Of a stretch of DNA of 46,780 bases, positions 29,052 to 38,575 are shown piece after piece. This stretch comes from Candidatus Endomicrobium embiratermitis. Lineage in GTDB: Bacteria > Elusimicrobiota > Endomicrobiia > Endomicrobiales > Endomicrobiaceae. Position 1 is the stretch's first letter; each line of letters begins with the position of its first letter. Location: the NCBI GenBank assembly GCA_009781315.1, contig WQYI01000014.1, positions 1-46,780 on the forward strand. Direction: 5' to 3'. Under the pieces are notes generated by a model. It ran no database searches, was not told the origin of the DNA, and saw only the letters and a program-made list of their open reading frames with translations. The translations under genes and the position numbers were made by a program.

Positions 29052-29125
29052 GTCATTCTGAACGAAGTGAAGAATCCAGAAGCTAAAGTAATGGATACAT
29101 TCGGGGCTTTGCCCCTCAGTATGAC
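29052..29125. repeat. GTC-hairpin element A (two modules)
   Basis: The modules are 29052-29077 (+) and 29093-29125 (inverted). The left one is ATTCT-GA-AC-gaa-GT-GA-AGAAT. The right one has the inner stem GGGGC-ttt-GCCCC inside an ATAC/GTAT outer stem. Confidence 0.85.
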
Positions 29126-29142
29126 AGACAAAAGAATACACA

Positions 29143-30663: not shown

Positions 30664-30756
30664 CATACTGAGGCGGCAGCTTCTTTGACGTCGAATGTAT
30701 CTATTTGTTAAAGTTAAAGGCTGTGGATTCTTCACCCCTGCGGGGTTCAGAATGAC
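30662..30756. repeat. GTC-hairpin element E (two modules)
   Basis: The modules are 30662-30702 (+, with a long, weakly paired interior) and 30725-30756 (inverted). Read in module orientation the second is ATTCT-GA-ACCCC-gca-GGGGT-GA-AGAAT followed by CC. Confidence 0.8.
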
Positions 30757-30773
30757 AGGCAGGAGGAGTAATT

Positions 30774-31463: not shown

Positions 31464-33192
31464 AGGAAGTTTTTTTCTTAAAATATTCGCGTTTTTTATA
31501 TTAAATTCGCTTCTTTTGGCCGTTATTTTTTTTATCGCGGCTAATGCTTATATAAAGGCTTCAAACATAAATTTGTTCTCGCGTGAATTAAAAACTAACG
31601 CCGTTACCATTATTCCTTTTATTGCCTCTGACATAGAAAAGAAAGATTACTCGGCTTTGAATATTGCGGTTGAGGATATTTCCAGGCGTTTGGGAAACAG
31701 AATTACGGTTATAGATTTGGACGGAACGGTTGTAGCTGATTCCCAAAACGAAGCGTCGTCTATGGCAAATCACGCCGGCAGAGACGAAATTAAAGCCGTT
31801 TTAGGCGGAAAGCCTTTTGCGGTGTCTGTAAGATACAGCTCGACGCTGCAGGAAAACATGCTTTACGCGGCTCTTCCGGTTGAAACGCAAAGCGGGCTTT
31901 TTGCGGTTTTACGTTTGAGCATGCCGTTAAAAAATATAGATCTGTTCACTAAAAACGCGATAAAACACATTTTTCTGATTTTTTTAATCTCGGCGTTTGT
32001 TTCATTTTTTACGGCTTTTGTTATGTCAAGAAAAATGACGCGCGGCATAGATTCTTTAAGCAAAGCGGCTTTAAGCATTTCCTCCGGGGATTTTAAAACC
32101 AAAGCCGAAGTTTTCGCGAACGATGAAATCGGCGCGCTTGCCGTTTCTTTTAACTCTATGTCGGATAAAATAGACGTTTTATTTAAAGAAATAAACGATT
32201 CGAAAAACATGCTGGATAAAATTCTTTCTTCCGCTTCGGACGGAATTATGCTTGCCGACAAAGACGGAAAAGTCTTTCTTGTTAATGAAGCGATGAGAAA
32301 ACTGTTTCCGGATTCGAATCAGGGGCGTTATATATGGGAATTTTTAAGAAACAAAGATTTTGAGACGGCGTTAAAAACCGTATCCGACGGCGCAAGTCAG
32401 GCGCTTTTAGGAGAGTTTAAGTATGAAAATTCAATGTTTTCTTATGCCGTTTCCAAAGTAAAAGACGAAGATAAATTTGTTATTATGCTCAGAGACATCA
32501 CAAAAATAAAACAGCTTGACGATTTGAAAAAAGAATTTATAACTAACGCTTCGCATGAGTTAAAAACTCCGGTTACTTCAATAGCGGGTTTTGCCGAAAC
32601 CCTTGAAACGCAAAATCTTCCCAAAGAAACAGTCCATTATATAGAGATAATAAAAAAGCAGGCGATAAGACTTTCAAATATAGTAAACGACCTGCTTTCT
32701 CTTTCCGCGTTTGAAACTATGAAAAACGTCGACAGAAAAGAAGCCGATATCGCGGCAATAATAAGCGACGTTGTAAACCTTTACAGAAAAAAAGCTTCTG
32801 AAAAAAGTTTGGAAATAAAAATCGACATACCTTCCGATTTAAGAAAAGCGTACGTTAACGAATTTAATATAGAGCAGCTTTTTGCCAATCTTATAGATAA
32901 CGCCGTAAAGTATACCGAAAAAGGGGTAATTTCCATACAAGCCGGGAATTTAAATAATGATTATATAACAATTTCCGTTTCCGATACGGGAATAGGCATT
33001 TCTAAAAGCCATCTGCCAAGAATTTTCGAAAGGTTTTACGTTGCTGACAAAGCAAGGTCTAAAAAAAGCGGCGGCACGGGCTTGGGGCTTTCAATAGTCA
33101 AACATATTTTAAACGTCAACGGCGGAGATATTTCCGTGGAAAGCGAAGAAGGAAAAGGCACGACGTTTACCATAAAACTTCCAACCAACTAG
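31453..33192 (+). CDS. phoR: PhoR-like sensor histidine kinase
   Basis: A 579-aa protein starting at TTG 31453 inside the end of phoB (11-nt overlap), which gives a normal first membrane helix at residues about 8-31. An extracytoplasmic domain (about 32-165, with VIDLDGTVVADSQ and NHAGRDEI) and a second membrane helix (about 167-190) follow. After these come HAMP (about 190-245), PAS (about 255-350), HisKA with phospho-acceptor His368 (ASHELKTP), and HATPase_c with the N box (LIDNAVKY, Asn483), DTGIGIS and GTGLGLS. The domain order is that of PhoR/WalK kinases. It probably phosphorylates the upstream regulator in response to phosphate supply, with PstSCAB-PhoU downstream as the usual signal source. 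Confidence 0.9.
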   Translation: MKNKGSFFLKIFAFFILNSLLLAVIFFIAANAYIKASNINLFSRELKTNAVTIIPFIASDIEKKDYSALNIAVEDISRRLGNRITVIDLDGTVVADSQNEASSMANHAGRDEIKAVLGGKPFAVSVRYSSTLQENMLYAALPVETQSGLFAVLRLSMPLKNIDLFTKNAIKHIFLIFLISAFVSFFTAFVMSRKMTRGIDSLSKAALSISSGDFKTKAEVFANDEIGALAVSFNSMSDKIDVLFKEINDSKNMLDKILSSASDGIMLADKDGKVFLVNEAMRKLFPDSNQGRYIWEFLRNKDFETALKTVSDGASQALLGEFKYENSMFSYAVSKVKDEDKFVIMLRDITKIKQLDDLKKEFITNASHELKTPVTSIAGFAETLETQNLPKETVHYIEIIKKQAIRLSNIVNDLLSLSAFETMKNVDRKEADIAAIISDVVNLYRKKASEKSLEIKIDIPSDLRKAYVNEFNIEQLFANLIDNAVKYTEKGVISIQAGNLNNDYITISVSDTGIGISKSHLPRIFERFYVADKARSKKSGGTGLGLSIVKHILNVNGGDISVESEEGKGTTFTIKLPTN

Positions 33193-33283
33193 AAGATGAG
33201 ATGATGAGAAGTTGAGATGCTGGGCAACGTCGCTGTTTCCTTGCCGTTTCTCAACATCCCAACCTCTTATCTTCCCATCTTCT
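33191..33283. repeat. Inverted word repeat, GAAGATGAGATG family, copy 2
   Basis: The left arm (33191-33223, AGAAGATGAGATGATGAG) mirrors the right arm (33250-33283, CCCATCTTCT). The inner GGCAAC and GTTTCC/TTGCC segments can pair in part. It directly follows the phoR stop. Confidence 0.8.
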
Positions 33284-33313
33284 GTCATTAAACTTCTTAA
33301 CAAAAAACTAACA
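33282..33313 (+). promoter_or_regulatory. Candidate Pho box of the porin gene
   Basis: CTGTCAT (33282-33288), CTTCTTA (33293-33299) and a weaker third unit lie at 11-bp steps. A second reading gives TTAACA (33297-33302) and CTAACA (33308-33313), also 11 bp apart. An 11-bp period and CTGTCAT or TTAACA cores are what PhoB/PhoP sites show in E. coli and Bacillus. Possible -10 boxes are TTTATT near 33319 and TATTAT at 33345-33350. The first unit overlaps the repeat element's end. Confidence 0.45.
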
Positions 33314-33349
33314 AATTCTTTATTTCTCCTTAATTTGCGTTTTGTATTA

Positions 33350-33426
33350 TTTACCCGTAAGAGGACGAAAATGTCCTAATAAAAGGCACAATGTGCCAAG
33401 GTGCGAAGCGCCAGGGGTAAAGACCC
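33350..33426 (+). promoter_or_regulatory. Structured leader of the porin mRNA, possible riboswitch or thermosensor
   Basis: Three hairpins stand in a row: AGGAC/GTCCT (33362-33377), GGCAC/GTGCC (33385-33397) and GGTGC/GCGCC (33400-33412). An outer stem TTTACCC (33350-33356)/GGGTAAA (33415-33421) can close them. The same GGGT can instead pair with ACCC (33423-33426), right beside AAAGGAG (33427-33433). The two pairings exclude each other. I do not recognise a known riboswitch class. Confidence 0.5.
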
Positions 33427-33442
33427 AAAGGAGAAATAAGAG

Positions 33443-34744
33443 ATGAGAGCAAAGTTAGTAAAGCAGTTAAAAAAAGTTGTTTTGACGTTGACGGCAGTCG
33501 TATTTATGAGCAATGTGGCGTTTGCGGGAGAAGTCGATAAACTTGCGACAATACTTGCTGAAAAAGGCATAATTTCTTACGGGGAAGCGCAGAGAATTAT
33601 TACTGAAACTAAAGAAGATATAAGGCATCAAACGGCAACCGGAAAAAACGAAAATCTTCCTCTTTGGATTCAAAGAATGCAGATAAAAGGCGATATTCGC
33701 GTGAGAAGCCAGATTGACAGCGCCGATGTAGATGCTGTTAATACTAACGGCGATTACAGAATTCGCGAGAGAATAAGACTTCGTTTCGGAATAGAAACTT
33801 ATGCTTTAGACAGCTTAAAAGTAGCTTTTGGCATAGCGACAGGCGCATTAGCCGGAACAGGCGATAAAAACCCTACCTCTACAAACCACACTTTTGAAGC
33901 TTTCAATAAAGCTCCCATATTTTTAGATTACGCTTATATACAATATGCCGCTCCTATTATAGAAGGGCTTGTGGTATCGGGCGGAAAAGTTAAAAACGGG
34001 CTTCAGCTTTGGGCTCCTTCGCAGTTGATATGGAAGAACGACGTAAATCCCGACGGCTTAGCTATTAACTATACTACAGACGTCGGAAACGGCATAAACG
34101 TATTTGCAAATGCCGGCTGGTACGCGCTTGGGGAATTAAGAGAAAGAACCAACACAGCGGTTAAAAACGGCATGCCTACTCTTTTAATAGCTCAGCCCGG
34201 CGCAAGTTATTCTAAAGGCGATTTTTCTGCAAAAGTCGGTCTTTCGCTACAACAGTTTTATGTAAAAGGCAATACAATTGCCAGCAATGAACCCGGAACA
34301 TGGTGGAGCTCGGGAGCTGAAATTATGGATTATTCTCTTGTAAATCCGGGCTGGGAAATTAAAATGAAAAACGTTGTTAACGATTACGGAGTCAGCTTTA
34401 GCGGAGATTTTGTTAAAAACGTAACCGAAAGCGCGACCCAAGCCATCAATGATCAAAATAAAGAAGGGTATATACTTTGCATTGGAATAGGCGATGACAA
34501 AATAGGCAGTTTCGGCACTTGGCAGGCAAAAGGCGCGTACCGCCGTTTAGACGCTTATGCGATACCTACAGGCTGGGGTAATACTGATGCTTACAGCGCG
34601 AAACCCGGTAAAGGCTGGGAATATTCTTTGGCTTTGGGATTGTTGGCCAATTTGTCCTTTAACCTTAATTACTATGAAATGACAAATCTTGACGGACAAG
34701 CTCCGACGCGTTTAACTCAGTTTGATTTTATATATAAATTCTAA
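33443..34744 (+). CDS. Putative outer-membrane porin
   Basis: A 433-aa protein with a Sec signal peptide (residues 1 to about 28, cleavage at AFA-G). A short coiled or SLH-like stretch (about 29-60, LATILAEKGIISYGEAQRII) is followed by a barrel of alternating strands from about residue 70 (MQIKGDIRVRSQI, RIRERIRLRFG) to the terminal FDFIYKF with C-terminal Phe. The pattern fits the Porin_5 'putative porin' family. Its place between phoR and pstS, with a candidate Pho box, suggests an anion or phosphate uptake channel induced by phosphate starvation. That role is inference. GGAG lies 9 nt before the ATG. Confidence 0.82.
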   Translation: MRAKLVKQLKKVVLTLTAVVFMSNVAFAGEVDKLATILAEKGIISYGEAQRIITETKEDIRHQTATGKNENLPLWIQRMQIKGDIRVRSQIDSADVDAVNTNGDYRIRERIRLRFGIETYALDSLKVAFGIATGALAGTGDKNPTSTNHTFEAFNKAPIFLDYAYIQYAAPIIEGLVVSGGKVKNGLQLWAPSQLIWKNDVNPDGLAINYTTDVGNGINVFANAGWYALGELRERTNTAVKNGMPTLLIAQPGASYSKGDFSAKVGLSLQQFYVKGNTIASNEPGTWWSSGAEIMDYSLVNPGWEIKMKNVVNDYGVSFSGDFVKNVTESATQAINDQNKEGYILCIGIGDDKIGSFGTWQAKGAYRRLDAYAIPTGWGNTDAYSAKPGKGWEYSLALGLLANLSFNLNYYEMTNLDGQAPTRLTQFDFIYKF

Positions 34745-34761
34745 TAATAGTTTCTTGGTCT

Positions 34762-34835
34762 GTCATTCTGAATCCCAAAGGGGTGAAGAATCCACGCCTT
34801 TAACGACTGGATACATTCGCTTCGCTCAGTATGAC
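34762..34835. repeat. GTC-hairpin element B (two modules)
   Basis: The modules are 34762-34793 (+, inner stem ATCCC-aaa-GGGGT within ATTCT-GA and GA-AGAAT) and 34809-34835 (inverted, minimal inner stem GC-ttc-GC). The element lies between the porin and pstS. Confidence 0.85.
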
Positions 34836-34870
34836 AGACAAAATTAAATAAAAATAAACAGGAGAAAATA

Positions 34871-35682: not shown

Positions 35683-35764
35683 GTCATTCTGAAATGCAAA
35701 GCATTGAAGAATCCAGTTGTTAAACTACTGGATACATTCGGCAACGGAGTTGCCTCAGTATGAC
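35683..35764. repeat. GTC-hairpin element C (two modules)
   Basis: The modules are 35683-35714 (+, inner stem AATGC-aaa-GCATT within ATTCT-GA and GA-AGAAT) and 35730-35764 (inverted, inner stem GGCAAC-gga-GTTGCC). These are the clearest examples of the two-level stem. Confidence 0.88.
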
Positions 35765-35830
35765 AGACAAAGACATAAGGAATGACAAGCATATAACAAT
35801 CGTCCGCAAAGCTAGCGGGCTTGGAAGGTC

Positions 35831-38470: not shown

Positions 38471-38575
38471 GGAAGATGAGAAGATGGGAAGTTGGGAGGA
38501 TGAGCAAAGGCAAAGATTTTTTTTGTCGTTATAGTCGTTACCCAACATCTCACCTTCTCAACATCTCATCTTCTA
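38471..38575. repeat. Inverted word repeat, GAAGATGAG family, copy 3
   Basis: The left arm (38471-38505, GGAAGATGAGAAGATGGGAAG) is mirrored by the right arm (38541-38575, CAACATCTCATCTTC). It lies between pstB and phoU with the purine arm on the left, as in the other two copies. Confidence 0.8.

Follow-up and report, generated by a model that had tools for sequence, protein, structure and literature searches.

The RNA in front of a porin gene in the phosphate locus of Candidatus Endomicrobium embiratermitis is predicted to fold into a series of small hairpins that ends just before the ribosome-binding site, which raises the question of whether this leader switches between two states or merely shields the message and keeps it open to the ribosome. 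The gene lies in a window of 46,780 nucleotides (contig WQYI01000014.1, positions 1 to 46,780) from an Endomicrobium-type bacterium of the termite-gut group (Elusimicrobiota, Endomicrobiaceae). An earlier reading made from the letters alone (the sequence-only reading) had proposed a possible new riboswitch here, with an ompA-like stabilising leader as the plain alternative. The leader is most likely an ordinary structured 5' leader, and its structure is real, above chance and recurrent in the family.

The placement of the porin in a phosphate locus proved correct, the gene order being phoB-phoR-porin-pstS-two permeases-ATPase-phoU. NCBIfam models for the PstS family and for PhoU exceed their cut-offs at the locus, and those for PhoB and PhoR give strong matches that nonetheless stay under the curated cut-offs. 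The porin matches no NCBIfam model, and its nearest named relatives come from Candidatus Endomicrobium labiotermitis (60% identity) and neocapritermitis (56%). PhoE of E. coli and OprP of Pseudomonas are PhoB-regulated outer-membrane porins; like them, the present porin stands behind a PHO-box promoter, but it is a member of Porin_5 and is sited between phoR and pstS. Leader hairpins are not known to be a feature of PhoE or OprP. Literature searches found nothing on the porin leader, and in the main text of a genome survey of Endomicrobia (PMC11257099) a word search returned none of the whole words 'porin', 'pst', 'pho' or 'riboswitch'. Among the genomes listed for the large genus g8, many of them small or incomplete, none has a porin match at E 0.001, and this genus is perhaps an endosymbiotic lineage. 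Two repeat-like stretches flank the gene. The phoR-porin intergenic stretch 33190-33229 has similar copies at 38536-38575 and in two samples of the same genome (L092, L098) and is perhaps a dispersed repeat, and the porin-pstS gap holds an inverted repeat with 17-nt arms at 34755-34842, of which partial copies occur at 30713-30758, 29115-29133 and 35754-35771.

The promoter decides which RNA has to be considered. As in promoters of the Pho regulon, 11-nt direct repeats precede the -10 box, here beside the phoBR and pst genes (Table 1); the published PHO box is described as two 11-nt direct-repeat units (PMC4415409). Judged by these letters, the operator would be bound by PhoB. The hexamer at 33345-33350 varies between relatives in the manner of a -10 box: across 19 aligned porin upstream regions it reads TATTAT in 11 and TATACT in three, with single instances of TATGAT, TATCAT, TACCAT, TATATA and TAGAAT. 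A search for a sigma-70 promoter that includes a -35 element found none at the porin, and at PhoB promoters the absence of a -35 element is expected. A DNA search with 33300-33445 as query over 60 genomes, the source genome included, gave full-length alignments only in the two closest relatives (G003, 90%; G001, 78%). At most other porin loci (match E <=1.2e-5) only the promoter part aligned, ending at 33351-33353, and at two (G013, G017) the alignment reached 33360. The promoter is conserved among relatives up to about 33352. Because this conserved PhoB-type promoter has its -10 box at 33345-33350, its geometry places the predicted transcription start near 33357. A literature search on transcription starts in Endomicrobium returned no mapped start. 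No terminator-like site was found on the + strand of 33150-33500. The promoter DNA at 33320-33331 (TTATTTCTCCTT) is the exact reverse complement, over 12 nt, of the Shine-Dalgarno (SD) region at 33431-33442 (AAGGAGAAATAA), a complementarity that would count only for read-through transcripts from phoR. This pairing was set aside, as the promoter DNA precedes the predicted start and the complementary spacer is not constant across species.

Table 1. Features of the porin gene, its predicted promoter and its predicted leader (positions in the window).
Feature	Position	Strand	Basis or remark
Putative PhoB-type operator, 11-bp direct repeats TTAACA-N5-CTAACA-N5-TTTATT-N5-TTAATT	33297..33335	+	also upstream of relatives' porins
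-10 box TATTAT	33345..33350	+	aligned porin upstream regions
TTTACCC, 5' arm of outer stem (last -10 base plus discriminator)	33350..33356	+	probably untranscribed
Predicted transcription start, G, +/- 1-2 nt	33357	+	7 nt past -10 box
H1 AGGAC/GTCCT	33362..33377	+	predicted fold
H2 GGCAC/GTGCC	33385..33397	+	predicted fold; compensatory changes between genera
H3 GGTGC/GCGCC	33400..33412	+	predicted fold; U-G pair becomes C-G in L002
H4 GGGT/ACCC, alternative pairing of the sequence-only reading	33415..33426	+	predicted probability 0.69
Shine-Dalgarno AAAGGAG	33427..33433	+	probability unpaired 0.99 with start 33357
Porin gene, 433 aa	33443..34744	+	Pfam Porin_5 PF16930, 95.1 bits

The fold is more stable than that of shuffled sequence. 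The 84-nt stretch of the sequence-only reading folds at -28.7 kcal/mol, compared with -15.75 (sd 2.68) in 200 dinucleotide shuffles, none of which is as good (z -4.83), and the RNA that begins at 33357 is predicted to fold into H1, H2, H3 and H4 at -25.6 kcal/mol, which against 1000 shuffles corresponds to z -4.75 and p 0.001. The three clean hairpins seen earlier are confirmed where they had been placed, and the predicted fold adds a fourth, in which GGGT (33415-33418) pairs with ACCC (33423-33426) directly ahead of AAAGGAG, the pairing next to the ribosome site to which that reading had pointed. Control leaders came from 447 kb of the same genome, with genes called by a simple script; in this set of 96, which includes the porin and has a mean z of -0.63 (sd 1.67), the porin leader ranks third and alone carries four hairpins of at least four pairs, while one other leader has three.

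The outer stem fared differently and was not confirmed as exceeding chance. Its letters are as had been stated (TTTACCC at 33350-33356, GGGTAAA at 33415-33421), but with the predicted start at G33357 its 5' arm consists of the end of the -10 box and the discriminator. The sequence-only reading had itself named a start at about 33357, removing this strand, as the observation that would speak against a switch, and promoter geometry predicts the start at just that place. Both pairings were computed for RNAs starting at each position between 33346 and 33361. They are encoded together and would compete for starts at 33348-33352 (outer stem 0.49-0.84, H4 0.11-0.35), and the outer ACCC/GGGT pairing vanishes for starts from 33354 on. 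The SD is predicted to be unpaired at 0.97-0.99 for starts 33356-33361 and somewhat less so, at 0.62-0.78, for starts 33346-33355, so that it is not hidden even then. In a swap test, the discriminator of each species was paired with the pre-SD segment of that species and, for comparison, with those of the others; own arms did no better (P 0.21 for 16 leaders, 0.22 when each clade supplied a single leader, 0.83 once the window, L002 and L013 had been removed). Both outer arms are kept in L002, and in L013, of the same genus, they are kept save for one change that by eye sets C opposite A and is uncompensated. As a covarying element the outer stem was rejected, having found no support in the swap test.

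Leaders of relatives show how far the hairpins extend. A porin search over 60 genomes (the source genome included) gave matches in 26, with 33 matches listed and 30 made into loci. Upstream regions were read at 25 and leaders folded at 16, from seven nucleotides past the -10 box to the SD. The 16 do not include L008, L012, L019, L021 and L022, which lack the promoter motif, L028, whose leader carries an insert of 164 nt, or L017, L018 and L030, which fall outside the family; L020 and L023-L026, with partial or weak porin matches, were not among the 25 upstream regions. Eleven of the 16 family leaders are more stable than shuffled sequence (p<0.05), the 16 having a mean z of -3.0 and a combined z of -12 that overstates the case, because close pairs make the leaders non-independent. 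The exceptions are L010, L014, L015, L027 and L029; in L015, of the window's genus, the leader is 15 nt long and forms no hairpin, and the promoter match is weak (6 mismatches). Folded apart, L017, L018, L030 and the porin copy L068 gave p values of 0.046, 0.455, 0.010 and 0.347. Hairpin number and sequence differ among the leaders of other genera. A covariance model built from the three same-genus leaders and run on 41 genomes, with filters that can lose weak matches, gave strong matches to its three source leaders and no further match above 30 bits. What appears to be selected is the presence of hairpins and not their identity, the sequences turning over between species. In L028 (G004 C217) the 164-nt insert has 17-bp near-perfect terminal inverted repeats and folds at -75.9 kcal/mol, and looks like a small non-coding mobile element.

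The excess of structure is found before the porin and not before the gene that follows it. That following gene encodes PstS in the window and in relatives was taken as pstS from position and size. Its leader was measurable in eight of the 16 loci, the gene being too close in five and none being found in the stretch covered in three. The eight leaders have a mean z of -0.68, and one of them reaches p<0.05 by way of a long repeat-like hairpin. Another Pho-type promoter match (L077, 3 mismatches) precedes a 23-nt leader that has no hairpins. Hairpin leaders as a general feature of the Pho regulon were rejected on these two grounds.

The sequence-only reading had asked for covariation in orthologous porin leaders, which was seen in H2, between two genera, and was lacking in the outer stem over the 16 leaders. 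The H2 alignment comprised six rows from the window's genus and genus g13, L013 being omitted as its hairpin could not be lined up. Between the genera 31 of 32 cells are paired, and in two of the six pairs both bases have changed (G-C to A-U and C-G to U-A). The covariation score is attained by 8 of 500 shuffles and the count of doubly changed pairs by 57 of 500, and the paired fraction falls to at most 48% when the partner is shifted by one to three columns. This covariation lends the hairpin modest support, modest because the structure was picked from the same six sequences that were tested. Pair counts in the three same-genus leaders alone were uninformative, as 168 of 500 shuffles reach their paired fraction and 79 their covariation score.

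These results fit the plain alternative better than the switch, and it now stands as the leading explanation: with moderate confidence, we consider it probable that the leader is a non-switching 5' UTR that protects the mRNA and keeps open the SD of a putatively PhoB-dependent porin message. The stretch 33357-33442 would be the 5' untranslated leader of the porin, made from the PhoB-dependent promoter under phosphate scarcity, and its four short hairpins would stand in series from about 5 nt past the start to 2 nt before AGGAG. Most likely they act passively, withholding the 5' region from RNases that depend on the 5' end or act on single strands and tying up the RNA ahead of the SD, which is thereby left accessible. 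RNase E and RppH are described as needing single-stranded 5' ends, 5' structure thereby stabilising mRNA (PMC3997798), and stem-loops and 5' UTRs are listed among protective mRNA features (PMC7509114). Candidates for a 5'-end-sensitive RNase are predicted in the source genome, where an RNase E/G-family gene (329 bits) and an RNase Y gene (690 bits) score over cut-off, and where RNase J, at 23 bits against a cut-off of 400, falls far below. Blocking of the 5' end in the strict sense may be incomplete, because about 5 unpaired nucleotides precede H1 and RppH of B. subtilis is described as needing at least two unpaired 5' nucleotides and preferring three or more. Counted against a stabiliser are the five of the 16 family leaders and two of the four further porin leaders that do not differ significantly from shuffles, together with the mostly paired SD of L005 and the short distance, 2 nt, between H4 and AGGAG. 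Across the 16 leaders the first stem lies not significantly closer to the 5' end than in shuffles (P 0.065), and 5'-terminal placement of the first hairpin was not retained as a selected feature.

The closest model is the 5' mRNA stabiliser of ompA, reportedly described by Emory, Bouvet and Belasco in 1992 and by Arnold et al. in 1998. Both leaders belong to an outer-membrane protein gene, carry stem-loops near the mRNA 5' end and leave the SD outside the stems; unlike ompA, the porin leader has about 5 unpaired nucleotides at its predicted 5' end and four small hairpins. The likeness is one of predicted structure, with no sequence relation claimed. If its hairpins do lengthen the life of the porin mRNA, the principle of the ompA-like stabiliser would extend to a phosphate-starvation porin far outside the Proteobacteria.

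The other explanations partly overlap with this one, and the probabilities given to them do not sum to one. The hairpins might act on translation alone, stopping upstream RNA from pairing with the SD and leaving mRNA stability unaffected, which overlaps the stabilising leader and which we regard as rather unlikely by itself. Across the 16 leaders the SD is more open than in 200 shuffles (0.83 vs 0.755, P 0.005), with L005 as a case in which it is mostly paired (unpaired probability 0.18), and the window's leader reaches 0.99. Against this, the SD is also largely unpaired in shuffles of the window's own leader (mean 0.87), by which measure four hairpins seem surplus to the task.

It is less probable still that the hairpins serve as binding sites for a trans-acting factor, an RNA-binding protein or a small RNA, that tunes porin synthesis. 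Their excess in porin leaders and its absence from next-gene leaders would suit such a platform, and elsewhere the mRNAs of outer-membrane proteins are described as small RNA targets, as with MicA on ompA (PMC2777011). A specific site would, however, need a common sequence, and by eye the stems and loops share none across genera.

About equally doubtful is a mutational by-product, in which short palindromes without any selected role would arise and persist, either by chance or as small dispersed repeats. The high turnover of sequence and a repeat-like hairpin array elsewhere in G002 speak for it, as does a somewhat greater frequency of perfect mini-hairpins in the genome sample than in a single shuffle (173 vs 129 with a loop of 3). 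That excess is modest and not found at every loop length (90 vs 90 with a loop of 6), the control being one shuffle. Dispersed repeats were rejected after a search of the 447 kb sample that allowed up to two mismatches: neither H1 nor H3 recurs, H2 is nearly matched once, and for the 13-nt H4 there are seven loose matches with one or two mismatches. The lack of an effect in next-gene leaders and the compensatory changes in H2 likewise count against a by-product.

A bolder reading, which we put forward as speculation and hold to be unlikely, is an interchangeable hairpin array in one particular mRNA leader of the Endomicrobiaceae, in which number, stability and an open SD are selected, the sequence being free to turn over, and which would form a tunable platform setting porin output in phosphate starvation. 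As a part of that idea, and equally speculative, the array would serve resistance to RNases or an RNA-binding protein that reads structure. For comparative work the locus offers apparent selection for hairpins without sequence conservation, in the leader of one gene and in the little-studied phylum Elusimicrobiota.

Weakest by far, and in our estimate highly improbable, is the two-state switch or new riboswitch, in which competition between the outer stem and GGGT/ACCC, perhaps with a ligand, would set access to the SD: it is unsupported because the start is predicted at 33357, which excludes the 5' arm, the SD is predicted to be largely unpaired whichever state forms, no core was found beyond close relatives in 41 genomes searched with filters that can lose weak matches, and L015 has no hairpins. 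Its rejection rests on promoter geometry, on the swap test and on the lack of a core in that search. The leader shares with Rfam riboswitches and cis-regulatory leaders a structured RNA upstream of the SD; it differs from them in matching no family, in the lack of a conserved core and in having no alternative state that hides the SD. The remark that no known riboswitch class fits agrees with Rfam, which at gathering threshold gave no match in the whole window; at E up to 10, two sub-threshold matches to eukaryotic families lay near the leader, each on the opposite strand. The riboswitch candidate is thereby lowered, and a plain, testable leader takes its place.

Among the weaker matches of the covariance model were two kinds of structured RNA elsewhere. 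One is the G002 array (L102:490-563 and around, on C1), a tandem series of small hairpins of the GGGGCATTGCCCC / GGGTCATTGACCC kind, with no reading frame of at least 90 aa running through the match. The other is the leader of a gene that, from its protein sequence, we take to be rpsB (ribosomal protein S2), found in the source genome (L103:360-458, C1) and in G003 (L104:276-362, C14). Rfam placed nothing over threshold there. Both rpsB leaders carry strong hairpins that differ between the two species and possibly reflect autoregulation by S2, and before the SD they end similarly to the porin leader (GGGTAAAAACCAAAGGAG).
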